A stretch of 50,971 nucleotides of DNA, from positions 6,095 through 57,065 of the forward strand of contig JAKUPR010000003.1 of assembly GCA_022450585.1 (NCBI GenBank), written 5' to 3'. Shown here piece by piece: positions 9,755 through 31,726 of this stretch (the first letter of the stretch is position 1; every line of letters starts with the position of its first letter). A program made the translations under genes and the position numbers. This DNA comes from Anaerolineales bacterium (GTDB lineage Bacteria; Chloroflexota; Anaerolineae; Anaerolineales; UBA11657). The notes under the pieces were generated by a model. That model saw only the letters and a program-made list of their open reading frames with translations. It was not told the DNA's origin and made no database searches.

Positions 9755-10162
9755 TTATGGGTTAACGGTAAATTGCGTTTCCATTCCAGCTTCCCGATGT
9801 CCGGATAAGTCACAAATCAAAGTATATGTGCCAGGTCTTAATGTTACTGACATGGACTGTGTATCTTGAGGGAGTATCAACTCGATTGTTTCGTCCATGC
9901 CTTCAACAACGAAATTGTGTTCTAAATTACCTGTATTTGTCACCATAAAGGTAACTTCACCTGCCTTAACTTCATCGCGTAGAGGTTCAATTGACCACTC
10001 CCATTGGGTGATTTCAACTAATGGAGGAGATTGTACACAAGCAGTTATTGGGATTGCCAGTATTGCCAGTATTGGCACACTGGGGTTACGAGCGCACTTC
10101 AATAACTTAATTTGATTACCTCTACTATCCAGTGTCCTGGTATGTTTGGATTGGATGATCAA
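9755..10162 (-). CDS. Cupredoxin-like lipoprotein
   Basis: 135 aa; lipobox-like ITAC, LEHNFVVEG and CDLSGHREAGM type-1 copper ligands. Start codon uncertain (first ATG overlaps soxB end by 38 nt). Confidence 0.82.
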   Translation of the reverse strand: MIIQSKHTRTLDSRGNQIKLLKCARNPSVPILAILAIPITACVQSPPLVEITQWEWSIEPLRDEVKAGEVTFMVTNTGNLEHNFVVEGMDETIELILPQDTQSMSVTLRPGTYTLICDLSGHREAGMETQFTVNP

Positions 10163-11810
10163 CCATTATAGTTGGATTAGCTTCAATATAATTTATCAGT
10201 TCCTCTACTGCTGGCAGATCTGTCGCTATTGGTTTGTTATCAACTTGTTGCGTTCTCCCGCCCGAGGTGGCAAGACTGTACCATTGATCGTCAGCCAATG
10301 GAGTCCCATTGACGATAGGATTTAGAAGGCGATTGCCATATGTGCCTTGCTTGTGTAAGTTTGCTTTAATGCCACTGCATCTGCTCATGTCCCCGCCTAG
10401 GCGTAACATTGGATCAGGGTTGAAAACATTATCTAGATTATCCTCAATAATGTTTCGTACATCCATGCCAGTAAGTTGTGCTGTGTATAAGGGTGAGGGC
10501 GTAGGCTTCATTGCATTGTAGATATCTTCCACGGAGATTGTCCCGGGCAATAAAGTGGCGCCGAAACGCCATCCTCCTACGCAGCTTAGGTCAGAACCAG
10601 CAATTTCACGATAAGCGTTTGTCACAAAAGCATCTGTAGTTCCCCCAACAAGTGAGTGACGATAGAGGGTCGATTTCGTCTCTCCGATCACTCTCTCTAA
10701 ATCTTGCTGATATGGAAGATATAGATTGTCGATCATTTCGTTGATCTTGTCATCCGGTTCCACTCGTTCAGACAGAACCGGCAGCAGCTTGTGTTGATAT
10801 CCCACCATCTTTCCATTACTTACTTCTATGTCAAGTGCTCCTAGGAACTTTCCATGTGATCCGGATTGCACTATGAGTGTTTTGCCTACTTGTATTGGTG
10901 TCCATAGGATGCCGTGGGTGTGTCCTCCTACAATAACATCTACTCCTTCCAATCGTTCTGCCATGACCATGTCTTGCGGAAGGCCCATGTGAGAAAGCAA
11001 GATAACCAATTGTGCTCCCTCGTTCTCGCGCACTCGGTTTATCTCTGCCTGCAGCTCGATATCACGGTAACCCATGCGCCAATTGGGGTTTAGAGATGGA
11101 TCCTCTGTGGTTAGTAGGCTAAACGGATAGGCTTCTCCTACAATGGCCACACGCAGTCCATCGATGTCTCTTATCAGGCTGGATTGCAGTACACGATCTT
11201 CGAACTCAGTGTCCACGAGATTTTGTGCTAGCACGGCAAAATTGGCCTCAGAAATGCGGTCCAGTAGGACCTTCTTGCCAAGATTAAGCTCCCAGTGCAT
11301 CGTCATGGCATCATAGCCAATGGCATTCATGATATCTACGCAAGCGCGCCCATTGGTCAACATGGCAATTGCTGATCCATACCATGCGTCGCCACTGTCT
11401 AGAAGAAGGGTGCGCTCAGGGTACTTGGCACGTTCATCTTTAATTAATGCTGCCAAATGGGCTAAACCACCTACTTTACCGTATTGATTGGCGAGATCCA
11501 GAAAATCAACGTGGGAACTTAGATAGGCGGCTGCACTTCCGAATTCGATGTTGTTGTCATGCAAGAACTCTCTGCCTAATGGTTCTCTGTGGTAAACGGG
11601 ACGCAACTGGCCGTGTATGTCCCCGGTCCACAAGATGCGTAATGACACTTTGTCTAGGTGTACGGCAGCAATGGACTTCTCGGGCGATTTTGTCTGCTGG
11701 ACAATGTTGTTGTCCGTTCGAGATTTAGTATTCAGGCCGCAAGCACTGAGGCCAGCGGCTATGGTACTTTGGAGAAATCCGCGACGGGTAATGGATTTGG
11801 GTATTCCCAT
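10125..11810 (-). CDS. soxB: SoxB-like thiosulfohydrolase / 5'-nucleotidase-family metallophosphoesterase
   Basis: 561 aa; Tat signal (ITRRGFLQS), LWTGDIHGQLRPVYHREP, DSGDAW, MHWELNLGKK, GGHTHGILW; next to SoxYZ. Confidence 0.88.
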   Translation of the reverse strand: MGIPKSITRRGFLQSTIAAGLSACGLNTKSRTDNNIVQQTKSPEKSIAAVHLDKVSLRILWTGDIHGQLRPVYHREPLGREFLHDNNIEFGSAAAYLSSHVDFLDLANQYGKVGGLAHLAALIKDERAKYPERTLLLDSGDAWYGSAIAMLTNGRACVDIMNAIGYDAMTMHWELNLGKKVLLDRISEANFAVLAQNLVDTEFEDRVLQSSLIRDIDGLRVAIVGEAYPFSLLTTEDPSLNPNWRMGYRDIELQAEINRVRENEGAQLVILLSHMGLPQDMVMAERLEGVDVIVGGHTHGILWTPIQVGKTLIVQSGSHGKFLGALDIEVSNGKMVGYQHKLLPVLSERVEPDDKINEMIDNLYLPYQQDLERVIGETKSTLYRHSLVGGTTDAFVTNAYREIAGSDLSCVGGWRFGATLLPGTISVEDIYNAMKPTPSPLYTAQLTGMDVRNIIEDNLDNVFNPDPMLRLGGDMSRCSGIKANLHKQGTYGNRLLNPIVNGTPLADDQWYSLATSGGRTQQVDNKPIATDLPAVEELINYIEANPTIMVDHPIQTYQDTG

Positions 11811-18144: not shown

Positions 18145-18801
18145 ATGGCTGACCCTATGTGGGATTCATACAACGAGTTTCTGCTTCATGGTGAAGCGAA
18201 TCGTTTCGCAAAAATGTTTGCTCGTTACGAGCTCTTTCAGAAGATCATGAATTTACCAGGTGATATTGTTGAGGCTGGTGTTTTTAAAGGTGCGGGAGTT
18301 CTTTATTGGGCGAAGCTTGTCGAGATTTTTAATCCTCAATCTACGCGGAGAGTTATTGGATTTGATACGTTTCAGGGTTATCCAGAGACAAACAGGGAGT
18401 ATGAAAGAGATTCTGGGAAAAAATTCGAAGAGGATGCAGACTATGACCCTGTTTCCCCTGATGCCATCATGGAAATCGCGGCCTCGCTTAATCTTTCTCA
18501 CCGAATTGAGCTCGTGAAAGGCGATGCCGCGGAATCTGTTTTGAGTTATGTAAACGACAATCCTGGATTTAGGGTTGCGCTGGTGAATATGGATTTTGAT
18601 ACTTATGACCCTACGGCTGCTTGCTTGCAACATTTGTATCCACTAGTGGTACCAAAAGGTGTGGTAGCTTTTGACAACTACGCTATACGAGGATGGGGCG
18701 AATCAGATGCTGCGGATTCTTTTTTTCGGGACAAGTCCGTTGTATTGCATTCATTTAGTTGGGCAAATACGCCCACGGCCTTTTTTCAGAAGGAAGCATA
18801 G
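18145..18801 (+). CDS. TylF/MycF-like class I SAM-dependent methyltransferase
   Basis: 218 aa; IVEAGVFKGAGVLYWAKL, RRVIGFDTFQGYPE, ALVNMDFDTYDPTAACLQHLYPLV, VAFDNYAIRGWGE. Confidence 0.85.
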   Translation: MADPMWDSYNEFLLHGEANRFAKMFARYELFQKIMNLPGDIVEAGVFKGAGVLYWAKLVEIFNPQSTRRVIGFDTFQGYPETNREYERDSGKKFEEDADYDPVSPDAIMEIAASLNLSHRIELVKGDAAESVLSYVNDNPGFRVALVNMDFDTYDPTAACLQHLYPLVVPKGVVAFDNYAIRGWGESDAADSFFRDKSVVLHSFSWANTPTAFFQKEA

Positions 18802-18815
18802 GGAACTTGAACGCT

Positions 18816-20201
18816 ATGGTCGACCGCTACGTTGTTCAAGATAATGCAACGATTGAGCAGGCGATGCGTTGCATAGATCAGTCTGGAGGCACGGTTGCTC
18901 TCATTACTTATAGGAAGCGTCTCGTTGGACTTGTAACCAATGGTGACATTCGTCGAGCCATACTTCAGGGAAGTCTGTTATCTCGCCCAGTGGCGGAAGT
19001 CATGAATTCAGACCCTTTTCTGTTGCGTACATCAGAGATGGAAGACAATACCCGTTTGTCTGAGGCGCTGATGTTTTTGAAAGAAACGGGAGCCAACGTT
19101 ATGCCGGTAATTGACGATGATAGTCGGTTGCTAGATCTTCTTTTTACTCCGCAACTTGAGGCGCTTGTTTCTAGGGCTTTGCGTAAAACAGATGGGGATT
19201 CAAAACAGCGCCCTAGGATATTGCTAGTTGGAGGTGCTGGTTACATAGGTTCAGTTCTGGCTAGACTATTGATTGAGAATGGGTTTGACGTGCGAGTGGC
19301 AGATCGCCTCATGTATGGACGTGAGCCTATCGAGACCCTAATTGGGCAACCACACTACGAATTTTTTCGCTCTGATATACGACATATAGAGAATATGATT
19401 GACTTGGTAGCTGATGTCTACGCAGTTGTCCACATGGCTGAGATTGTGGGGGACCCTGCATGTGCATTGGACCCCAGCCTTGCTCTGGAGACCAATTTCC
19501 TCTCTGTTCTAGCGTTTGCAACACTGTGTAGCCATATTCAAGTCAACCGCTTTGTATACTTGTCGTCGTGCTCTGTATATGGTGCTAATAGTAACCCTGA
19601 CAAGTTGCTTACTGAAGACTCTCCACTCAATCCGGTTTCGCTATATGCGCAGATGAAAGTCAAGACCGAATCTGGTTTGGTTGAGTTAGCCGAGCGGAGT
19701 GTTAATTTTTCCCCTGTGCTGTTGCGCTTGGCAACTGTATTTGGGTGGTCACTGCGCCCTCGTTTTGATTTGGTGGTGAACCGGATGACTGCTCAGGCAG
19801 TGCGCGATGGAACGATAACGATATTTGGCGGTGAGCAATGGCGTCCAAATATTCACGTTAGTGATGTCTCTAGGGCTATTCTGGCAGTGCTACAAGCTCC
19901 AGTGGTCGATATTAGTTGTCGGGCTCTGAACGTTGGGGACAACGATTTGAATTATCAGGTGCGCGAAATCGGAGAGTCGGTGGCCCGCGGAGTGGTAGGA
20001 ACCCGAATCCAGTTAGAGGTAGATAATACGGATAAGAGGGACTATCGTGTTTCTTTTGATGCAATTCGTGAATTACTAGGATTTGAGGCGTCCGTGAGTC
20101 TATCAGACGGTATTCGGGAGATAAGCGAGTTTCTTGATTTAGAGAGCGTTGATTTTCATCATCCACGATACAACAACTTATATTCTTTGAGGATGCAATA
20201 A
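18816..20201 (+). CDS. CBS-domain pair fused to NAD-dependent epimerase/dehydratase
   Basis: CBS pair (IEQAMRCIDQSGGTVALITYRKRLVGLVTNGDIRRAILQG ... VMNSDPFLL ... NVMPVIDDDSRLLDLL) then Rossmann LLVGGAGYIGS and YAQMK catalytic motif. Track ORF starts at 18759; ATG at 18816 preferred to avoid overlap. Confidence 0.87.
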   Translation: MVDRYVVQDNATIEQAMRCIDQSGGTVALITYRKRLVGLVTNGDIRRAILQGSLLSRPVAEVMNSDPFLLRTSEMEDNTRLSEALMFLKETGANVMPVIDDDSRLLDLLFTPQLEALVSRALRKTDGDSKQRPRILLVGGAGYIGSVLARLLIENGFDVRVADRLMYGREPIETLIGQPHYEFFRSDIRHIENMIDLVADVYAVVHMAEIVGDPACALDPSLALETNFLSVLAFATLCSHIQVNRFVYLSSCSVYGANSNPDKLLTEDSPLNPVSLYAQMKVKTESGLVELAERSVNFSPVLLRLATVFGWSLRPRFDLVVNRMTAQAVRDGTITIFGGEQWRPNIHVSDVSRAILAVLQAPVVDISCRALNVGDNDLNYQVREIGESVARGVVGTRIQLEVDNTDKRDYRVSFDAIRELLGFEASVSLSDGIREISEFLDLESVDFHHPRYNNLYSLRMQ

Positions 20202-20207
20202 TTTTCT

Positions 20208-21233
20208 ATGTCGAATTCATTTGTAGGTGCTCGTATCTTGATTACTGGTGGTACAGGTTCGTTTGGAGAATTTGCCATTAGCCGTTTTCTTGAGGACGAG
20301 CCTGAGCAGATTGTTGTTTACAGCCGTGACGAATATAAGCAGTTCAACTTGCAGCGCAAATACGCCGGGGACAAGCGGCTTCACTTCGTGTTGGGCGATG
20401 TTCGAGATGAGGCTAGACTTACGGATGCTCTGGTTGGTGTTGACGTGGTAATACACGCTGCAGCCATGAAGCAAGTGCCTGCATGTGAGATGAATCCGAG
20501 TGAAGCAATTTTGACCAATGTACTGGGCGCCCACAATGTTGTGCGTTCCTGTCTGCGCAGTGACGTATCTTCTGCAATAAACCTTAGCCCTGACAAAGCG
20601 ACGATGCCAGGTGGAGTTTATGGGGCTACCAAGTTGTTAAGCGAGCGTGTTTTTTCTCACGGCGGAATTTCTCAGGCAAGTAATCTGCGAGCAGCCAGTA
20701 TCCGGTATAGCAATGTGTTGGGCACTCGTGGTAGCGTCGTAGAGGTATTTGAGCAGCGACTGCGTGATGGTTTTCCCTTGGTAGTCTTTGATCCAAGAAT
20801 GATTCGCTTGGTGTTAACCCAGGATCAAGTTGTAGATTTGGCATGTTATGCTTTTGATACTATGCTCGGTGGCGAGGTTTTCATAAAGGATTCTCCGGCT
20901 TTGCGGATTGTGGATTTGGCGCAGGCCATGGTTGATGTTTTCGGAAGCGGCGAAGTGATTGTGAAGGATCAAGATGTGCGGGCGGGCGAGAAATATGATG
21001 CGTACCTGCTATCAGCATCCGAGGCTGAAAATACTTTGATGACCCAGGATGGCTACTTCGTCATTCTGCCCTCATTGTCGAATAGTCAACGTGATATATA
21101 TACTACACACTATCAGCAAGCAAAAGCAGTTGCCGTGCAAGACTATGGTTCATCTACTGCAAGATTGTTGAGCAAGGATGATATAGTGAAAATGATTGGT
21201 GGAATTGTTCAAGACAGAACTTCTTTTGATTAA
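20208..21233 (+). CDS. pseB: PseB-like UDP-GlcNAc 4,6-dehydratase (5-inverting type)
   Basis: 341 aa; RILITGGTGSFGEFA, YSRDEYKQF, VIHAAAMKQVPACEMNPSEAILTNVLGAHNV, LSPDKATMPGGVYGATKLLSE. Confidence 0.88.
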   Translation: MSNSFVGARILITGGTGSFGEFAISRFLEDEPEQIVVYSRDEYKQFNLQRKYAGDKRLHFVLGDVRDEARLTDALVGVDVVIHAAAMKQVPACEMNPSEAILTNVLGAHNVVRSCLRSDVSSAINLSPDKATMPGGVYGATKLLSERVFSHGGISQASNLRAASIRYSNVLGTRGSVVEVFEQRLRDGFPLVVFDPRMIRLVLTQDQVVDLACYAFDTMLGGEVFIKDSPALRIVDLAQAMVDVFGSGEVIVKDQDVRAGEKYDAYLLSASEAENTLMTQDGYFVILPSLSNSQRDIYTTHYQQAKAVAVQDYGSSTARLLSKDDIVKMIGGIVQDRTSFD

Positions 21234-21239
21234 TCTCCA

Positions 21240-22436
21240 ATGACTTACACAATTATTGATCGGAATCGATTGTCGGAAGATCACTTTATACCGTACGCTT
21301 CACAATGGTTGGAGGCAGATGATATTCAGGCCGTTGTAGATGTGCTGGAGAGTAGCTGGATCACACAAGGTCCAAAAGTGAGCGAATTTGAGAGCAAGGT
21401 CGCTGAGCATTGTGGCGCGCGCTATGCTGTTGCTGTCGCGACTGGTACGGCCGCCTTACATTGCGCTGCTTTTGCGGCTGGAGTAGAGCCAGGTGATGAA
21501 GTGATTACCTCCCCCATAACTTTTGTTGCCTCAGCAAATTGTGTTGCCTATTTGGGTGCAAGACCAATCTTTGCGGACATAGACCCAGATACATTGAATT
21601 GCGATCCAAATGAAATAGAGAAGAATATTTCTCCGCGTACTAAGGCTATTATTCCCGTAGATTTTTCTGGACACCCTGCAGAGATGGATGAGATTATGTC
21701 TATCTCCCAGGAGCATGGTCTGACAGTGATTTCAGATGCTGCTCATTCTCTGGGTGCCGAATATCGTGGGAAGACAGTGGGAGCGATTGCTGATATGACG
21801 GTTCTCAGCTTTCATCCCGTTAAGCATATCACCACTGGTGAAGGCGGTATGATCATTACAGACAACCCTGATCTCTATGAGAGACTTCTTCTGTTTCGCA
21901 CACACGGGATAACTAACCGTCTTGAGATGTTAAGTAACAAGAAATCAGGTGGTTGGTATTATGAAATGCAGGCTCTGGGTTACAACTATAGAATAACTGA
22001 CATCCAGTGCGCTTTGGGCATTAGTCAGCTTGCCAAGCTAGATAGATTTGTATCCCGGCGACGTGAAATTGCTCATCATTACGATCAGGCGTTTTCCGGA
22101 ATTCCGGAAGTCATCCTTCCTGTAGAGCGCCCGTATGTTAAGTCATCCTATCACTTATATGTCTTACAGTTTGATTTCAGACTGTTGAGTACAGACCGCA
22201 CTGAACTATTTGACAAACTACGTGCTCGTAACCTTGGTGTTCATGTGCATTACATTCCGGCCCACCTCCAACCTTATTATAAGAATAAGTTTGGATATCA
22301 ATACGGTGACTATCCGCATGCCGAACGGTACTATGATAGGTGTTTAACCATTCCATTGTATCCGCGGATGACTGATATGGATGTACAGAGGGTGATTGAC
22401 AGTATTTGTGAAGAAATTGACTCAGCACGGTTATAG
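21240..22436 (+). CDS. pseC: PseC-like UDP-sugar aminotransferase (DegT/DnrJ/EryC1 family)
   Basis: 398 aa; ATGTAALHCAAFAAGVEPGDEVITSPITFVASANCVAY, SDAAHSLGAEYRGK, SFHPVKHITTGEGGMI (PLP Lys). Confidence 0.9.
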   Translation: MTYTIIDRNRLSEDHFIPYASQWLEADDIQAVVDVLESSWITQGPKVSEFESKVAEHCGARYAVAVATGTAALHCAAFAAGVEPGDEVITSPITFVASANCVAYLGARPIFADIDPDTLNCDPNEIEKNISPRTKAIIPVDFSGHPAEMDEIMSISQEHGLTVISDAAHSLGAEYRGKTVGAIADMTVLSFHPVKHITTGEGGMIITDNPDLYERLLLFRTHGITNRLEMLSNKKSGGWYYEMQALGYNYRITDIQCALGISQLAKLDRFVSRRREIAHHYDQAFSGIPEVILPVERPYVKSSYHLYVLQFDFRLLSTDRTELFDKLRARNLGVHVHYIPAHLQPYYKNKFGYQYGDYPHAERYYDRCLTIPLYPRMTDMDVQRVIDSICEEIDSARL

Positions 22437-23476
22437 TGAGTAATGATGGTGCGGGTGAAGCTCTTCCCCAGCACGATGTTCGTGTGGTCATATGTACACT
22501 TGGATCTCCCCAATCTGGTCTTGGACATCTCCGCAGGTGTCTAGCTTTGGCATGCGCACTTCAGCATCTCTGCGGGGTAGTAGACTTTTGGGTTGAGGAT
22601 ATAGAGGCAGTTTCTGTTATTCGAAATGCTGGTTTCGCGGCACGATTGGTAGACCCAGAAACTCTACCAGAGCCTGGCATCGCCGATATGCTGGTGGTGG
22701 ATGGTTATCATTATGATGATCAGTTCATCAAAAAGGCGCGAGACCGTGTGTCGCTTGTGTTGGCTATTGAGGATTTGCCTGATAGGTTTTTGCCGGCGCA
22801 TATCATATTGAATTCTGGTACGCGCGCCAAGCAGCCTACTCAATTATATCCTTCGGATACTCAGTTTCTTCTTGGTGCCGACTACGCACTGTTGGACTCG
22901 GCTTTCTCAGAATCTCCCTCTCGTGAGTATCGTACTGAAGTACATAGGATACTAATAACTGTTGGCGGATCCGACCCAATGAATCTAATGCCTCGCCTGA
23001 TGCAGTGGGTTCGACAGAGTCATCCTAAAGTGTCGCAGGATGTCATTGTGGGCCCATTTTTTTCCAACCAGGAAGAGATTGAGGAAGTTGCACAGAGTTT
23101 GGGTTCAATAAAACTTTGGACTAATCCTACCAACATGCGCGGTATTATGTGTGAGGCTGACTTAGCTGTTGCTGGAGCTGGCCATACACTCTTCCAGCTC
23201 GCCGCGTGTGCTACACCTACAGTGGCGATTGCGCTTTTCGCTAATCAATTAATTCACGTAAAAGAGTTGGCGCAAAGTGGTGCAGTGGAATGGGTAGCTC
23301 GTTGGAGCGACAATAACCTTGGTGACCGAGTTTTGACCGCTGTCGCCAGATTTTCCAGGGTTTCCGCGCGCTCCAGTTTAGGAAGGGCTGCGAGGAAGAA
23401 TGTCGATGGGAGGGGTGCACAAAGAGTTGCTGCTGTTGCCGTAGAGAGATTGCGAAGAGAGCAAACCTATGACTGA
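22436..23476 (+). CDS. pseG: PseG-like UDP-sugar hydrolase
   Basis: 346 aa, GTG start overlapping pseC stop; SGLGHLRRCLALACAL, LLGADYALLDSAF, ILITVGGSDPMNLM, AGAGHTLFQLAACATPTVAI. Confidence 0.83.
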   Translation: MSNDGAGEALPQHDVRVVICTLGSPQSGLGHLRRCLALACALQHLCGVVDFWVEDIEAVSVIRNAGFAARLVDPETLPEPGIADMLVVDGYHYDDQFIKKARDRVSLVLAIEDLPDRFLPAHIILNSGTRAKQPTQLYPSDTQFLLGADYALLDSAFSESPSREYRTEVHRILITVGGSDPMNLMPRLMQWVRQSHPKVSQDVIVGPFFSNQEEIEEVAQSLGSIKLWTNPTNMRGIMCEADLAVAGAGHTLFQLAACATPTVAIALFANQLIHVKELAQSGAVEWVARWSDNNLGDRVLTAVARFSRVSARSSLGRAARKNVDGRGAQRVAAVAVERLRREQTYD

Positions 23477-24518
23477 AAGAATTAGGGTGGGTGAACGATG
23501 GATTGGAGATGATGAGCCAGTTTTTATCATTGCAGAGGCTGGCAGCAATCACAATGGAAACTTCAACCAAGCGCTTCGTTTGGTCGACGTTGCGGCTGAG
23601 TCTGGAGCAGATGCGGTAAAGTTTCAGACTTTCAAAGCTTCGAAAATGTATCCACGGACTGCAGGCCAATCTGATTATTTGGGAGTTTCTGAGTCCATCT
23701 ACGACATAATCAAGAAGATGGAAATGCCGGAGGATTGGGTGCCACGCTTGGCGGAATATTGTCTGGAAAAGAAGATTGAGTTTATTTCTACTCCGTTTGA
23801 TGAGGCGGCGGTTGAATTACTCGCTCCATATTTGAATATTTTTAAGTTGGCTTCGTATGAATTGACGCATACTCCTTTAGTGCGCCATGTAGCGAGTTTT
23901 GGGAAGCCAATGCTTGTGTCTACCGGAGCATCTAGTTTAGAAGAGGTGATTAAAATAGTTGAGACTATTAGGAGCGAGGGTAACGATCAAATTATTTTGT
24001 GCCAATGTACAGCTAGCTACCCAACATTGCCCGAGGGTGTTAATGCGCGCGCTATGCTTGCAATGCGCGATGAGACCGGATGTCTTGTAGGGCTTTCCGA
24101 TCATTCGCGTGAGCCGATTATTGCCCCTACTGTCGCTGTGTCTCTGGGTGCTTGTGTGATTGAAAAGCATTTCACATTGAGCAACATACTTCCTGGTCCT
24201 GATCACCAGTTCGCTATAGAGCCGAGAGAGTTAGCCAGGCTAGTAGAAACTGTGCGTGTGGCAGAAAAGGTTTTGGGTCACGGACGCAAGGAATTGCTTC
24301 CGGAAGAACATGAGCTGTATGATTTCGCTCGACGGAGTGTTTTTTCCACGCGTAGCATTGAGGCTGGCGAGAGACTTGATCCTGATTGTGTGGCTGTCTT
24401 GCGTTGTGGAAAATTGGGTTATGGACTAGCGCCTGAACAATACGGGAGTATTCTAGGTCGTGCTGTGGGGCGTGATATACCTGCAAATAGTCCAATTCAC
24501 CTTGCTGATTTAGTGTGA
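23469..24518 (+). CDS. pseI: Pseudaminic acid synthase-like (NeuB family with SAF domain)
   Basis: 349 aa; FIIAEAGSNHNGNFNQALRLVDVAAESGADAVKFQTF, STPFDEAAVELL, FKLASYELTHTPL, STGAS, GLSDHS, EKHFTL, C-terminal SAF domain. Confidence 0.9.
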   Translation: MTERIRVGERWIGDDEPVFIIAEAGSNHNGNFNQALRLVDVAAESGADAVKFQTFKASKMYPRTAGQSDYLGVSESIYDIIKKMEMPEDWVPRLAEYCLEKKIEFISTPFDEAAVELLAPYLNIFKLASYELTHTPLVRHVASFGKPMLVSTGASSLEEVIKIVETIRSEGNDQIILCQCTASYPTLPEGVNARAMLAMRDETGCLVGLSDHSREPIIAPTVAVSLGACVIEKHFTLSNILPGPDHQFAIEPRELARLVETVRVAEKVLGHGRKELLPEEHELYDFARRSVFSTRSIEAGERLDPDCVAVLRCGKLGYGLAPEQYGSILGRAVGRDIPANSPIHLADLV

Positions 24519-25006
24519 CTGATTTCTTTCTGCGTGAGGTGACGAATGAGGATGTGCGGCTTCTATGGGAATGGCGGAATGATTCATTGGTACGTGAAAC
24601 GGCTTTCGATCAAGAATTTATATCGTGGAAATCTCATGCTTGTTGGTTTGATCGTAAATTATCTTCTGTTGATTGCCGTATATGGATTTTGCAAGACGAC
24701 GGTTTTCCTGTTGGGCAAGTGCGTTATGATCGTGGTGGAGAAATAGCCGAACTCACCTACTCTGTTTCGAAGGAATTTAGAGGTCGAGGTTTAGGGACAG
24801 TGCTTCTGCAGATGTCTACCCCATTAGCGTGTAAGGAGCTTGACGTTGCTATTTTGGTTGCATTTGTAAAGCAAGGCAATCTTCCGTCAATGCGAGCGCT
24901 AAAGCGATCGGGATTTGAAAGAATGAAGGTAATAAATCGAAACAATGAGCAGTGCTGGAAGTTCCAGAAATCGTGCGAATCATGCAACCAGATATTTACA
25001 TCATAG
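24515..25006 (+). CDS. pseH: GNAT acetyltransferase, PseH-like
   Basis: 163 aa, GTG start overlapping pseI by 4 nt; LLWEWRNDSLVRETAF, VGQVRYDR, LTYSVSKEFRGRGLGTVLLQ. Confidence 0.82.
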   Translation: MTDFFLREVTNEDVRLLWEWRNDSLVRETAFDQEFISWKSHACWFDRKLSSVDCRIWILQDDGFPVGQVRYDRGGEIAELTYSVSKEFRGRGLGTVLLQMSTPLACKELDVAILVAFVKQGNLPSMRALKRSGFERMKVINRNNEQCWKFQKSCESCNQIFTS

Positions 25007-25022
25007 GGAGTTCGACTGATCT

Positions 25023-25703
25023 ATGGCCAAAATAATAGTGGCAACTGTTGGGTCGTGGAATGTTAGCCGTTTCCATCAATGGGAATCAGACAACCAACAC
25101 GATGTTCATTTGATTACAGGGCAGGCGGAATTTAATTTGGAGGCGGTCATCGAGTTTGCGCCACATTACATTTTCTTTCCACAGTGGTACTGGAAAATTC
25201 CAGAAGCAATCTTTGAAAATTATGAGTGTGTGGTTTTTCATATGACAGATCTTCCTTTTGGTCGTGGGGGTAGTCCCTTACAAAACCTTATTCTACGTGG
25301 TATATATAGAACACAATTATCTGCCATAAGGGTGGTGGAGGTCATGGATTCTGGACCAGTATACTTGAAGCACCCGCTATCTTTACATGGCAGTGCGACG
25401 GAAATATATATCCGTGCCTCTGAAACAACTTTTGAGATGATTGATGAAATATTGGAGTCGCGGCTGACCCCGAAAAATCAGAAAGGGGAAGTGGTGAAAT
25501 TCAAACGGCGCACAGCTTCTGAAAGCGAAATTCCGCCTCGTGATGACTTGCAGGATTTATATGATTTTATCCGTATGCTTGATGCTGAGGGATATCCACA
25601 AGCGTTTCTAACTCATGCTGGTTACCGCTACGAATTTTCACGTGCTTCCTTGCGTGATGGACACATTGTTGCTGACGTCATGGTTGTGCCACTGAGTAAG
25701 TAA
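25023..25703 (+). CDS. Formyltransferase-fold protein (sugar N-formyltransferase candidate)
   Basis: 226 aa; HYIFFPQWYWKIPEAIFENYECVVFHMTDLPFGRGGSPLQNLI, resembling the HxxxLPxxRGxxPxxW core of formyltransferases. Confidence 0.78.
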   Translation: MAKIIVATVGSWNVSRFHQWESDNQHDVHLITGQAEFNLEAVIEFAPHYIFFPQWYWKIPEAIFENYECVVFHMTDLPFGRGGSPLQNLILRGIYRTQLSAIRVVEVMDSGPVYLKHPLSLHGSATEIYIRASETTFEMIDEILESRLTPKNQKGEVVKFKRRTASESEIPPRDDLQDLYDFIRMLDAEGYPQAFLTHAGYRYEFSRASLRDGHIVADVMVVPLSK

Positions 25704-25712
25704 GGAGAAGAT

Positions 25713-26393
25713 ATGAGGATTCTGATTGTAGCTGCGCATCCTGACGATGAGGTCCTAGGTTGTGGTGGCACTATAGCCAAGCTTAGTCGGGAGCACGAGG
25801 TCCACATTGGTATACTAGGTGAGGGTATGACAGCTCGCAATGTGCAGCGCGAGGACGTTGACCCGAAAGCGCTCGAAGGATTACATGCTCGGGCGCGAGT
25901 TGCAGGACACCTGCTTGGCTCACGGTCAGTTTTGCTCGAGGGATTGCCGGATAATCGATTTGACGAACTACCTTTGCTTGACGTAGTCAAAAGAGTCGAA
26001 CGGTGGGTCAATGATCTTGCCCCTGAGGTTATTTATACACACCATCAGGGAGATTTAAACATTGATCATGTAGTCACTCATCGGGCAGTGTTGACGGCTA
26101 CCCGCCCAATTGCTAGTTGTCCTGTGCGGGAAATCTATGCATTTGAAGTGCCGTCTTCAACGGAATGGTCATTTCAGAGGTTAGGGGGCGCGTTCTGCCC
26201 TAACTGGTTTGTGGGAATCGATGATACCATTGAGACGAAAGTGCAAGCAATGGAATCCTACGAGAGCGAATCCAGACCATTTCCTCACCCGCGTTCGCCT
26301 GAGGCATTGCGAGCGTATGCGCGACGGTGGGGCAGTGTTGTTGGTTTGCAGGCTGCAGAAGCGTTTGAGCTTGTTAGGGCAGTTCGACCATAG
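25713..26393 (+). CDS. PIG-L/LmbE family deacetylase
   Basis: 226 aa; ILIVAAHPDDEVLGCGGTIAKLS and HHQGDLNIDHVVTHRAVLTATRP. Confidence 0.93.
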   Translation: MRILIVAAHPDDEVLGCGGTIAKLSREHEVHIGILGEGMTARNVQREDVDPKALEGLHARARVAGHLLGSRSVLLEGLPDNRFDELPLLDVVKRVERWVNDLAPEVIYTHHQGDLNIDHVVTHRAVLTATRPIASCPVREIYAFEVPSSTEWSFQRLGGAFCPNWFVGIDDTIETKVQAMESYESESRPFPHPRSPEALRAYARRWGSVVGLQAAEAFELVRAVRP

Positions 26394-26408: not shown

Positions 26409-28160
26409 ATGTTGAAAGATAACAATATCATTGCATTGAACTCAGCTAGTGCTAATACGGTGGACAATATCCCAGAGAGATTTCATGAAAGGTTTGACAG
26501 TAATGGTGCGATTATAAGTTCTCACTGGCCGCGGATTACTACTGAGGAATCAGAACTCTACTTTCAGAGTAGGCACCGGGGATTGCAACTGCTGTTAATC
26601 AATCCGCCTATTAGGGAGTGGTCCCATCCAAACATCATGCCCATTGGACATGGGTATGTTGGAGCAGTCGCTGTTATGGATGGACACAAAGTGGATGTAT
26701 TGGATCTTAACGCAGAGCGTGGTGGACCTGTGACGGATGCAGGAAGTAAGTTTTCTGTCTGGGTAGAAAATGAAATAATTAATAGGTTGGACAAGCAAAA
26801 ACCTGATGTGATTGGTATTGGCGGCATCATTACTCAATACAAATTGATTAAAAAGATAGCTACGATTTGCAAGAGACTCTGTCCAGATGTTCCGATTGTA
26901 CTTGGAGGAGGCATTGCCTCGTGTTTACCGGAATTTATGGTCACACGTCTCCCAATAGATGTAGCCTTGCAGGAAGAGGGAGAGGTCACTATTTCTGAGC
27001 TGCTCCATCGTCTGGAAGTAGGGGAGTCCCTTAAGGGATTGGTTGGAATAGCATATCGTCATGAGATTCGGCCTGGTGAATGGACGGTTCGTAACAATGG
27101 ACTGCGTCCGTCGGTTCAGAGTCAGCAAGCTGGTCTCGATGGTCTACCTTGGCCATTGCGTTCAGCTTGGCCGGTTGAGGAAGTGTACAAGCATAATCCG
27201 GTTGGACATCTTAACTGGCAGACTAAGTGGGTCGATGGTGCTGCGGGTGATCCAGGGCAATACTCTGTATCGATGATCGCATCACGTGGGTGTCCTTATG
27301 CGGTCAGGGCTTGTGACTATTGCTATGCTGCTTATCTCGGAAAACAATATCGATTGCGAAGTCCCAAGGAAGTCGTGGATGAGATGCAATATCTTAAGGA
27401 ACGTTTTGGGGTTACATACATTCACTTCTTGGATGATTTGTTGCTTACGGAGTATCGATGGGGTCTAGAGTTATTTGATGAGCTTCGTCGCCGTAAGGAG
27501 ACGGCCGGTTTCGAGGTAATGTGGGGTGGGACATGCCGAACCAACATAGTGGCGGCAGACGTATTAAGGGCTAGGCGAGAAGGTCGCCCGAACATTTTGG
27601 AGCAAGGATACGAGGTTGGAATGCGCCAAGCTTGCTATGGTGTCGAGTCCGCCAGTCCTACTATCTTGAAGGCAATTGATAAAAGTGGGCAGACAGTTGA
27701 AAGGATGGAGATCGCTATTAATGAGACACAGCGTGTTCTTGGTTATGCTGACTGTTCGTTTATGATCGCCTCACCGGGTGAGACTCGAGACACCGTGCGT
27801 GAAACGGTCGAGTTTTGCAAGAAGGTGGGTTTGAATCCAGAGGTATTTTTCTTTACTACGGCCTATCCGGGCACATCCTTCTGGCAATTAGCGCTTGACA
27901 TGGGGTTAATTTGTAAGGCAGTGACTGGGGAAAAGGGACCGGCTGACGATGACATCATTGAAGAGTATTTCTTGCGGCTGGGTGAGCAGGGTGATGACGT
28001 TAGAACTAACTTCAGTGATCTGTCCGATGAAGAGATAATTGAGCTTTCTTGGTGGGCTATAAGCGAGCTGGGTGCACAAAATACTGTGCGACATCCGCAC
28101 TCTGGCGAGATGCAGGATCGCACACAAGCTGTACGCGGGGCAACTAAGGCAGATTTATAA
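26409..28160 (+). CDS. B12-binding-domain-like radical SAM protein with atypical CX6CX2C cluster motif
   Basis: 583 aa; N-terminal cobalamin-binding-like fold (LLINPPIREW, GHGYVGAVAVMDGHKVDVLDLN, VLGGGIAS), then SRGCPYAVRACDYCYA and EVMWGGTCRTN; HFLDDLLL. Confidence 0.85.
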   Translation: MLKDNNIIALNSASANTVDNIPERFHERFDSNGAIISSHWPRITTEESELYFQSRHRGLQLLLINPPIREWSHPNIMPIGHGYVGAVAVMDGHKVDVLDLNAERGGPVTDAGSKFSVWVENEIINRLDKQKPDVIGIGGIITQYKLIKKIATICKRLCPDVPIVLGGGIASCLPEFMVTRLPIDVALQEEGEVTISELLHRLEVGESLKGLVGIAYRHEIRPGEWTVRNNGLRPSVQSQQAGLDGLPWPLRSAWPVEEVYKHNPVGHLNWQTKWVDGAAGDPGQYSVSMIASRGCPYAVRACDYCYAAYLGKQYRLRSPKEVVDEMQYLKERFGVTYIHFLDDLLLTEYRWGLELFDELRRRKETAGFEVMWGGTCRTNIVAADVLRARREGRPNILEQGYEVGMRQACYGVESASPTILKAIDKSGQTVERMEIAINETQRVLGYADCSFMIASPGETRDTVRETVEFCKKVGLNPEVFFFTTAYPGTSFWQLALDMGLICKAVTGEKGPADDDIIEEYFLRLGEQGDDVRTNFSDLSDEEIIELSWWAISELGAQNTVRHPHSGEMQDRTQAVRGATKADL

Positions 28161-28426: not shown

Positions 28427-29143
28427 ATGGGCAAGCCACATTATGTGGTGCGTGACCAAGGACTGATTGCGTACATGAATTTAACTGATATCGGAGTATG
28501 GTCATGTGGTCGTACGTCGAGTTCTCGGTGCCCTAACAAGATGATACGTTCGTTTCATGATACGACCTTAACTGATATATTGTTGACAAAATTAGCGGAG
28601 CTTCAAAACAACGTTTTCTTTGCTGGTTTTGAGCCGGTATTTCAGGAGAAGTGCAAGAAACACAAAGTTCCCTTTGTACAGAGGACCCAAAACTCTGCCA
28701 CGGTAGACCAGCCAGCTTCTGAAATATATAATTTCCTCGAGTCTCAGCCGTATGAGCTTATGTTACATATAAATGCGTGTGTTCCGTTCCTGAGAACCAG
28801 CACCATTGTTGAATTTTTAGAGAGATGTGTCGGTGATGGGCGGCCGTGTTTTGGTGTTTTTAATAGAATTAACTATTTTACTTTCACTGATGGGACGCCT
28901 ATAAACTGGCCTGATGACCTTACAACGATTAACACCAAGAATGTTTCACCTGTCTATGAATTTGCTCACGTATTCTACTTTTTTGAAAAACAATATTTTG
29001 TTGAAAATGGATGGTTTTGGGATTGGAAAGATGTCAGATATATTGAAATACCGGGAGGGTTAGAAACCTTTGATATTGATCATGAAGAGGATTTTCTAAT
29101 GGCAGAAACTCTTTGGCGAGGGTTACATCATTCTGTAGAATGA
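28427..29143 (+). CDS. Divergent acylneuraminate cytidylyltransferase-like protein
   Basis: 238 aa (true start may be ATG 28475); GRTSSSRCPNKMI in place of ARGGSKRxPxKN, MLHINACVPFLR, C-terminal TFDIDHEEDFLMAETL typical of CMP-NulO synthetases. Confidence 0.7.
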   Translation: MGKPHYVVRDQGLIAYMNLTDIGVWSCGRTSSSRCPNKMIRSFHDTTLTDILLTKLAELQNNVFFAGFEPVFQEKCKKHKVPFVQRTQNSATVDQPASEIYNFLESQPYELMLHINACVPFLRTSTIVEFLERCVGDGRPCFGVFNRINYFTFTDGTPINWPDDLTTINTKNVSPVYEFAHVFYFFEKQYFVENGWFWDWKDVRYIEIPGGLETFDIDHEEDFLMAETLWRGLHHSVE

Positions 29144-29194: not shown

Positions 29195-30268
29195 ATGAAT
29201 TTGTCAAAATTACTGATCGAGAAACCTGGAATTTCAAATCTCCATACTCCATATATAGTGGCTGAGGCAGGTGTCAATCATGAGGGATCCATACCAATTG
29301 CAGAACGTTTAATTGAAGAAGCGAAGGAGGGCGGTGCCAATGCCATTAAGTTTCAGGCATATAAGGCTGATACTATTGCTTCCAGGAATTCTCCTGCATA
29401 TTGGGACACGAGCGAGGAACCTATCACCAATCAATTTGATTTGTTTAAAAAGCACGATAAGTTTTGGAGAAAAGAGTTTGAAGTATTGAAAAAAAGGTGT
29501 GATGACGTTGGCATTGAATTTATTTGTACGCCGTTTGATTTTGAATCTGCCTTATTCCTAAATGATCTACTGCAAGTATTTAAGATATCTTCTTCAGATA
29601 TTACCAACAGGCCTCTCATTGAATTTATTGCAGAATTTGGTAAGCCGATTATTCTTTCTACGGGGGCTAGTAACCAAAATGAGATTGCTTCAGCAGTTCG
29701 GTGGATAAAAGATGTCCGTGACAACCCATTGGCTTTGTTGCATTGCATACTTAATTATCCTACTGAGGACAAAATCGCTCATCTAGGTGGGATCATCGGC
29801 CTACAGAATGCATTTCCGGAATTGGTAATAGGGTATTCGGATCACACTTTGCCTAGGGACATGGAAACACTTGTTGTGGCAACTTTGGTTGGAGCGCGGA
29901 TTATTGAAAAACATTTCACTCATGACAAGAGTATTGCCGGCAATGATCACTACCATGCTATGGATAAGACCGACATCCAATTCTTTAGGGAACGATTTGA
30001 AAGAGTAATTTCTCTGATTGGTGATCAGTCGATAAGATTTATGCCGGAAGAGGAAATAGCTCGTCATAATGAGCGCCGGGGCATCGTGGCAGCTAGAGAT
30101 CTTTCAGTGGGACACCAGATAAGCGAAGGTGATTTAGATTTCAAGCGGCCTGCCTATGGTATCAGTCCGGCAGAGTATAAGAGTGTGCTAGGAAAGATAA
30201 TTAGAAGTGCTGTTCAAGCTGACGCGCCATTAAAATGGGAAGATTTACATCTTCAAAGGGACTCCTAA
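29195..30268 (+). CDS. Second NeuB-family nonulosonic acid synthase with SAF domain
   Basis: 357 aa; YIVAEAGVNHEGSIPIAERLIEEAKEGGANAIKFQAYKADTIAS, CTPFDFESALFL, FKISSSDITNRPLI, STGAS, GYSDHTLP, EKHFTHDK. Confidence 0.92.
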   Translation: MNLSKLLIEKPGISNLHTPYIVAEAGVNHEGSIPIAERLIEEAKEGGANAIKFQAYKADTIASRNSPAYWDTSEEPITNQFDLFKKHDKFWRKEFEVLKKRCDDVGIEFICTPFDFESALFLNDLLQVFKISSSDITNRPLIEFIAEFGKPIILSTGASNQNEIASAVRWIKDVRDNPLALLHCILNYPTEDKIAHLGGIIGLQNAFPELVIGYSDHTLPRDMETLVVATLVGARIIEKHFTHDKSIAGNDHYHAMDKTDIQFFRERFERVISLIGDQSIRFMPEEEIARHNERRGIVAARDLSVGHQISEGDLDFKRPAYGISPAEYKSVLGKIIRSAVQADAPLKWEDLHLQRDS

Positions 30269-30885: not shown

Positions 30886-30991
30886 TACTTTTTGGAAAGG
30901 TAAATTAATTTGGGAATCTCGATTTATTCTTGCACTTTGTTGCTAATGATGCTCATCTAGTTTGGCGGTATCTTATAAGATTGACATAATT

Positions 30992-31726
30992 ATGGCAAAT
31001 CCACAGGTTATTGCGGTCATTCCCGCAAGAGGCGGAAGTAAAAGACTGCCAAGAAAGAATGTCCGTGTGCTTCGGGAAATCCCGCTGATTGCATATCCTA
31101 TACATGCCGCACTGTCCGCGGATTTTATCGATACTGTACTTGTTTCTACTGACAATGATGAGATTGCGGATGTAGCTCGGAAGTGGGGTGCGGAGATTGT
31201 TGAACGACCGGTTGAGATTAGTCGCGATACTTCTCCCATAGATGAGGCATTGCGACACGCTCTGCAATTCTGGCATCGGAAAGCAAATGTTGCTCCGGAG
31301 ATGCTAGTCTGGCTTCAAGCTGACGTACCTATTCACAAGCCTGGCATGATTGACAGGGTAGTTCAAATGCTGAGGACTGATGGGAATGCATCTGCAGTCG
31401 CAACCGGATATCGCGTGTCTGAGCATCCGTCTTGGATGAAGACGATGGATGCGGATGGTTACATGTATCCTTTGGAACCTAGTATGACCACATATCGCCT
31501 ACAAGATTTGCCGGATTTGTTCCTTCTAGATGGCGCAATAATGGCGATGCGGCCCGAGAATCTTGAGAATGATGAAGTAGGTCTACATGTGTATCTAGGT
31601 GAACATCCCAGGCTTCTTGTGCAAGAGCACCCCATGTATTCATTGAACGTTGAGACCATGGAGCAAATGGAGATAGCGCAATTTCATCTAGAACGTCACC
31701 CCGAATTGGTTCCGCCCCGAATTTAA
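30992..31726 (+). CDS. pseF: Acylneuraminate cytidylyltransferase (PseF-like)
   Basis: VIAVIPARGGSKRLPRKNVRVLREIPLIAYPIHAAL, VSTDNDEIADVA, WLQADVPIHKPG; ATG 30992 preferred over TTG 30962. Confidence 0.87.
   Translation: MANPQVIAVIPARGGSKRLPRKNVRVLREIPLIAYPIHAALSADFIDTVLVSTDNDEIADVARKWGAEIVERPVEISRDTSPIDEALRHALQFWHRKANVAPEMLVWLQADVPIHKPGMIDRVVQMLRTDGNASAVATGYRVSEHPSWMKTMDADGYMYPLEPSMTTYRLQDLPDLFLLDGAIMAMRPENLENDEVGLHVYLGEHPRLLVQEHPMYSLNVETMEQMEIAQFHLERHPELVPPRI

Follow-up and report, generated by a model that had tools for sequence, protein, structure and literature searches.

The occurrence, in a cluster for the synthesis of nonulosonic acids (NulOs), of a formyltransferase gene immediately followed by a gene for a PIG-L/LmbE deacetylase raises the question of what two such enzymes might accomplish together, and on which nitrogen of the sugar. 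N-acyl groups are a main source of diversity among the bacterial sialic-acid-like sugars. Our analysis of the DNA stretch containing the pair (hereafter the window, 50,971 nucleotides from an Anaerolineales bacterium) suggests that it is probably an N-acyl exchange cassette in a pseudaminic-type NulO pathway, whose product would be a 5-N-formyl-7-N-acetyl NulO.

The pair belongs to a run of seven close-packed genes, all on the + strand and with no significant gaps between them. This run begins with a PseB-like UDP-GlcNAc 4,6-dehydratase (20208..21233; Polysacc_synt_2, 248.8 bits; TIGR03589 PseB, 295.9 bits, below its cut-off of 407.75), followed by the PseC aminotransferase that makes the 4-amine (21240..22436; TIGR03588, 510.6 bits, above the cut-off of 423.5), a PseG-like UDP-sugar hydrolase (22436..23476; TIGR03590, 146.2 bits, below 153.55) and a NeuB/PseI-type NulO synthase (23469..24518; NeuB, 265.7 bits, with a SAF domain, below the NnaB and PseI equivalog cut-offs). 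A PseH-like GNAT, the proposed 4-N-acetyltransferase acting at the future C7 position of the NulO (24515..25006; Acetyltransf_3, 57 bits; PseH model, 47.5 bits, below 93.1), separates these from the formyltransferase, here termed FTA (25023..25703, 226 aa), and the PIG-L protein (25713..26393, 226 aa). The last two ORFs lie side by side exactly where the earlier note had placed them, with 9 bp between them and an AAGGAG sequence ahead of the PIG-L ATG; their proposed roles are, respectively, formylation of a freed 2-amine (C5 of the NulO) and removal of the 2-N-acetyl group. That note had also described the pair as following PseH in a pseudaminic-type operon. The GNAT directly upstream and the score of PseC, the only protein to pass its equivalog cut-off, agree with this description, whereas PseB, PseG, the GNAT and NeuB fall below theirs. 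Given the scores of the GNAT and NeuB in particular, the context makes the labels "PseH" and "pseudaminic" likely without proving them, and it is in this sense that we treat the cluster as a pseudaminic-type one. At its start (window 18759-20201), an NAD-dependent sugar epimerase is encoded as a fusion with a CBS-domain protein.

The formyltransferase fold claimed for the first protein is recovered by several approaches. It matches Pfam PF21553 (Formyl_trans_C_2) with 84.8 bits against a cut-off of 27, and aligns over its full length with PDB 1zgh at 51% identity (E 4.8e-72). A structure model built from a 25-sequence alignment (pLDDT 96, pTM 0.90; a single-sequence prediction, at pLDDT 38, was unusable) has 1zgh as its nearest solved structure (TM 0.96), followed by HypX, Fmt, WbkC, ArnA, VioF and Rv3404c. 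The RGGSP(L/I)QN motif of the PF21553/1zgh group is present in the window protein. The 1zgh entry, from Clostridium thermocellum, is titled "methionyl-tRNA formyltransferase" and, like FTA, carries an Asn-less version of the catalytic motif, CVVFHMTDLPFGRGGSP; in the literature searched it has no functional study or link to NulOs, the paper naming it being unrelated. Its title would make the window gene a second methionyl-tRNA formyltransferase, a reading that we regard as scarcely credible, since its score with the Fmt model (TIGR00460) is only 27.3 bits (cut-off 201.5), the true Fmt of the genome (279.8 bits) is encoded on another contig, and the gene itself lies within a NulO cluster.

The active site of FTA departs from that of the canonical enzymes. 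The window protein retains His73 and Asp109 as catalytic residues, while Val71 takes the place of the Asn in Asn-x-His, so that the His/Asn/Asp triad, whose absence from a predicted structure the earlier note had named as refuting its proposal, is found only in part. The same holds for the type as a whole: the His and Asp are present in 31/31 FTA proteins, and the Asn, two residues before the His, in only two of them (L023 and L166), whose gene setting is the same. This loss in 29/31 proteins, together with the close fold match to HypX, an enzyme of differing chemistry, could mean that FTA has ceased to be a formyltransferase and acts instead as a hydrolase or moves some other group, serving with PIG-L in an unspecified NulO reaction. 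We consider such a shift unlikely, given the invariance of the His and Asp, the conservation of the LP..RGGSP loop and of Asn88, and the retention of the catalytic Asn by two members in an identical setting. Moreover, HypX uses 10-formyl-tetrahydrofolate and in the alignment has Ile at the Asn position; because of this, and of the two members that keep the Asn, its absence was not taken as refuting formyl transfer. Asn88 and the neighboring Gln87 are both invariant in the alignment, although it is no more than speculation that Asn88 takes over from the missing Asn.

The PIG-L assignment of the second protein is likewise borne out, with 77.5 bits to PF02585 (cut-off 28.2) and an intact His2-Asp metal site formed by the AHPDDE motif (His9, Asp12) and the distal His119, which are invariant in the five proteins aligned (that of the window and four relatives). 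Scores against the NCBIfam equivalog models of the thiol-synthesis enzymes BshB1 (43.4 bits vs 182.5) and MshB (25.8 vs 224.35) speak against its belonging to either. In sharing this motif with the LmbE-like deacetylases, including PIG-L, MshB, BshB and the teicoplanin deacetylase, it joins a group that performs the 2-N-acetyl sugar deacetylation proposed here. All members characterized up to a 2014 review act on substrates containing N-acetylglucosamine or N-acylglucosamine, and the teicoplanin deacetylase clears an acetyl group ahead of a new acyl group (PMC4101496). In the literature searched, no LmbE-like deacetylase has been described in NulO synthesis.

The association of these genes extends well beyond the window. 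A Synechococcus plasmid has the order GNAT-formyltransferase-PIG-L-NeuB as in the window, at about 50% protein identity, and this, along with the presence of the pair in many NulO clusters, indicates that the layout is not due to chance. For a wider comparison, using profiles built for this analysis, we annotated 80 loci from a PIG-L-centred scan of viral contigs, many of which have PIG-L directly beside an FTA-type formyltransferase and NeuB, and another 80 from a NeuB-centred scan in which loci were chosen regardless of PIG-L. Most of these loci come from contigs that IMG/VR classifies as viral, with phage head genes confirmed in L008 only. In many contigs the pair of FTA and PIG-L lies directly against NeuB, the ORFs overlapping, and in a haloarchaeal locus from Halorussus (L006) PIG-L lies beside NeuB. 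Searches for PF21553 in the phylum, family and class of the source organism (397 genomes for the class) returned no copy other than that of the window. The module was thus probably acquired horizontally, and the window is without a close replicate.

Were PIG-L to free a second amine, two acyltransferases should be needed in clusters where it is present and only one where it is absent. Counting GNAT, LbH, formyltransferase and WbqC proteins in clusters dereplicated by NeuB, we found two or more acyltransferases in 24/30 clusters with PIG-L as against 2/24 without it (Fisher p=9e-8), the other 22 of the latter having one or none. The PIG-L-positive loci come mostly from the PIG-L search, the NeuB-centred sample contributing only 8; within that sample alone, the figures are 7/8 with PIG-L and 2/24 without (p=8e-5). 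FTA itself occurs there in 5/8 clusters with PIG-L and in 0/24 lacking it (p=3e-4), a link already apparent from the PIG-L-centred loci when the NeuB-centred scan was begun. An earlier count on GNAT, formyltransferase and hexapeptide patterns showed the same trend, though the NeuB-centred positives were lost in de-duplication; to this the final count added WbqC and an LbH profile. As WbqC was included only after inspection of the exceptions, its association is partly post hoc and is given less weight. Exceptions among the PIG-L clusters include L153, with no recognized acyltransferase, and L061 and L062, with a formyltransferase of the second type discussed below (FTB) only. Eighteen plasmid-borne (cellular) Pse clusters picked by PseC similarity contain no PIG-L, FTA or WbqC, which agrees with the model and adds no positives.

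The distribution of the deacetylase on a tree of NeuB (INDEPENDENCE) shows that its presence changes at least 14 times, 10 of these changes being forced by well-supported branches, which means that the association of PIG-L with acyltransferases does not go back to a single inherited event. Such changes are captured directly in two pairs of related contigs. L107 and L118 are collinear but for 1283 bp (L107 8965-10247) corresponding to FTA and PIG-L; the contigs align at 79% through to where NeuB ends and at 81% once the GNAT begins. This GNAT is kept (83% protein identity), and the block is placed between the two genes. In the second pair, L048 and L096, the difference amounts to about 1350 bp and once more consists of FTA and PIG-L, located between NeuB and an FTB gene that is itself retained (73%). 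In both pairs FTA and PIG-L come or go as a single block without displacing the resident acyltransferase, so that the cassette would be expected to act on a different amine. As read from these sequences, the empty sites provide the strongest single argument that the pair is likely to be one functional unit and to act on an amine other than that of PseH or FTB. Such repeated gain and loss among the NulO clusters of viral contigs also points to selection on the acyl group itself. Taken together, the recurrence beside NeuB, the one-block gain and loss and the second acyltransferase in the cluster support the earlier proposal that the two proteins act together in NulO synthesis.

The same observations bear on the alternative that the pair merely shares the cluster and acts on another N-acetylated sugar within the same surface glycan. 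This would fit the GlcNAc-containing substrates of known PIG-L enzymes (PMC4101496) and the occurrence of PIG-L relatives where NeuB is missing from the cluster (S. meliloti L005 and L054-L059). However, the overlap of the pair with NeuB, and its position exactly between NeuB and the acyltransferase in the empty-site comparisons, make a separate substrate rather improbable.

Returning to an exchange on the NulO precursor, the chemistry of the pathway indicates which nitrogen would be involved. N7 of the NulO derives from the 4-amine of the UDP-sugar and N5 from its 2-N-acetyl group, and the pair is hence assigned to N5. As in the established pathway, PseB and PseC would generate a UDP-2-acetamido-4-amino-sugar, on which the GNAT would acetylate the 4-amine, the future C7 nitrogen. 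PIG-L would then hydrolyze the 2-N-acetyl group, the sole acetyl brought in with UDP-GlcNAc, and FTA would move a formyl group, presumably from 10-formyl-tetrahydrofolate, onto the freed amine. Finally, again along established lines, PseG would free the UDP and NeuB would condense the sugar with pyruvate, the old 2-N becoming the C5 nitrogen. Known sugar N-formyltransferases act on nucleotide sugars, which favors a swap at the UDP-sugar over one at the free sugar or the NulO. As PseH would acylate the C7 amine and the swap would take place at C5, the two would not compete. Thus, of the acyl swap alongside PseH proposed earlier, the pairing and the NulO setting are retained, and the site is refined to what is most likely the original 2-N-acetyl group (C5), with PseH on C7.

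An exchange at the other amine, in which PseH would add the 4-N-acetyl group only for PIG-L to remove it and FTA to formylate the nitrogen, would yield a 7-N-formyl sugar. The position of the two genes directly behind the GNAT in the window could be read in this way, and 7-N-formyl pseudaminic acid is a known structure; yet formylation of the 4-amine requires no deacetylase, and the second type of formyltransferase appears to accomplish it in clusters free of PIG-L. Furthermore, such an exchange would replace formyl with formyl in the clusters that combine FTB, FTA and PIG-L (L048, L049 and L087), and the resident acyltransferase stays where the cassette is present, making this version quite unlikely. 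Under the assignment of the pair to N5, clusters of the L048 type are predicted to produce a 5,7-di-N-formyl NulO.

The two formyltransferase types are distinct in sequence and in genomic context. FTA, with its RGGSP-QN signature and mostly without the Asn, goes with PIG-L and lies beside a GNAT or FTB. FTB is typified by an N-L-H...LPxNRG signature, retains the canonical Asn-His-Asp triad in all of 17/17 members, and is the sole acyltransferase, in the position of PseH, in 6 PIG-L-free clusters of the NeuB-centred sample, suggesting that these produce 7-N-formyl NulOs. The formyltransferase tree places FTA and FTB in separate parts, FTB forming one group (support 100/88) and FTA one side of a weaker branch (62/91; found in 68% of bootstrap trees). 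The PIG-L-free NulO clusters with FTB alone at the PseH position were recorded as L093, L096, L100, L101, L104, L109 and L116.

PIG-L clusters lacking FTA mostly encode a WbqC-family protein (PF08889) accompanied by an LbH protein (L044, L050 and L123), a GNAT (L021 and L042), FTB, or the formyltransferase type FTC (Mariluticola). WbqC-family proteins may therefore fill the slot of FTA elsewhere, with another acyl group. On the whole, we tentatively entertain, as a generalization that might or might not hold, a two-slot acylation code for NulO clusters: a GNAT, LbH protein or FTB would serve the 4-amine, PIG-L would open a second slot by taking off the 2-N-acetyl group, and FTA (with formyl) or WbqC (with a different acyl group) would fill it, the cassettes of PIG-L and its partner moving between bacteria and phages; this would entail that FTA works without the Asn and that WbqC is an N-acyltransferase. 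The WbqC proteins seen in FTA-less PIG-L NulO clusters are those of L004 (13531-14208), L021, L042, L043, L044, L050, L123 and L124.

Several known systems resemble parts of the proposed cassette. ArnA, WbkC, VioF and Rv3404c have the fold in common with FTA (query TM 0.64-0.71) and likewise the catalytic His and Asp; they differ in that their triad includes the Asn. These enzymes, in which the Asn-His-Asp triad is present, formylate an amine made by an aminotransferase, without a deacetylase. A chemical precedent comes from the haloarchaeon Halorubrum sp. PV6, which makes 5-N-formyl-legionaminic acid and has a formyltransferase gene, HrrPV6_1050, in the cluster; its N5-formyl NulO is of the kind predicted for the window, although no deacetylase is named (PMC6137143). 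By its number, HrrPV6_1052 lies between the NeuD homologue and LegI, and it is given no assignment (PMC6137143). Our literature search, which covered open-access journal papers, returned nothing combining a formyltransferase, pseudaminic acid and a deacetylase, or PIG-L and pseudaminic acid. Neither formyl groups nor PIG-L come up in the recent Clostridium and Vibrionaceae surveys of Pse/Leg clusters. Replacement of the acetyl group derived from UDP-GlcNAc is likewise not described for NulOs in the literature searched. If correct, the proposed cassette would explain 5-N-formyl NulOs and make NulO acyl groups predictable from gene content, besides suggesting a function for the 1zgh/PF21553 family, now annotated as a tRNA enzyme, and offering a handle on the WbqC proteins.

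Other features of these loci extend the range of contexts in which such genes are found. In the window, a B12-binding radical SAM protein (26409-28160) begins 16 bp past the PIG-L gene, and the equivalent formyltransferase/PIG-L pair of the viral contig L007 lies between two radical SAM proteins. Further downstream are a second NeuB and two different CMP-sugar cytidylyltransferases (window 28427-29143, 29195-30268 and 30962-31726), so that a second NulO is possibly made from the same cluster; two NeuB genes are likewise common in the viral loci. Another conserved pair, formed by a sugar epimerase or dehydrogenase gene directly upstream of PIG-L, is present in a number of viral contigs (L054, L057-L059, L065, L072-L076, L078, L085 and L090) in which NeuB is absent within the fetched stretch. 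The phage contig L008, which encodes a portal and a major head protein, has two different formyltransferase-like genes adjacent to each other (9992-11159), with no PIG-L nearby.
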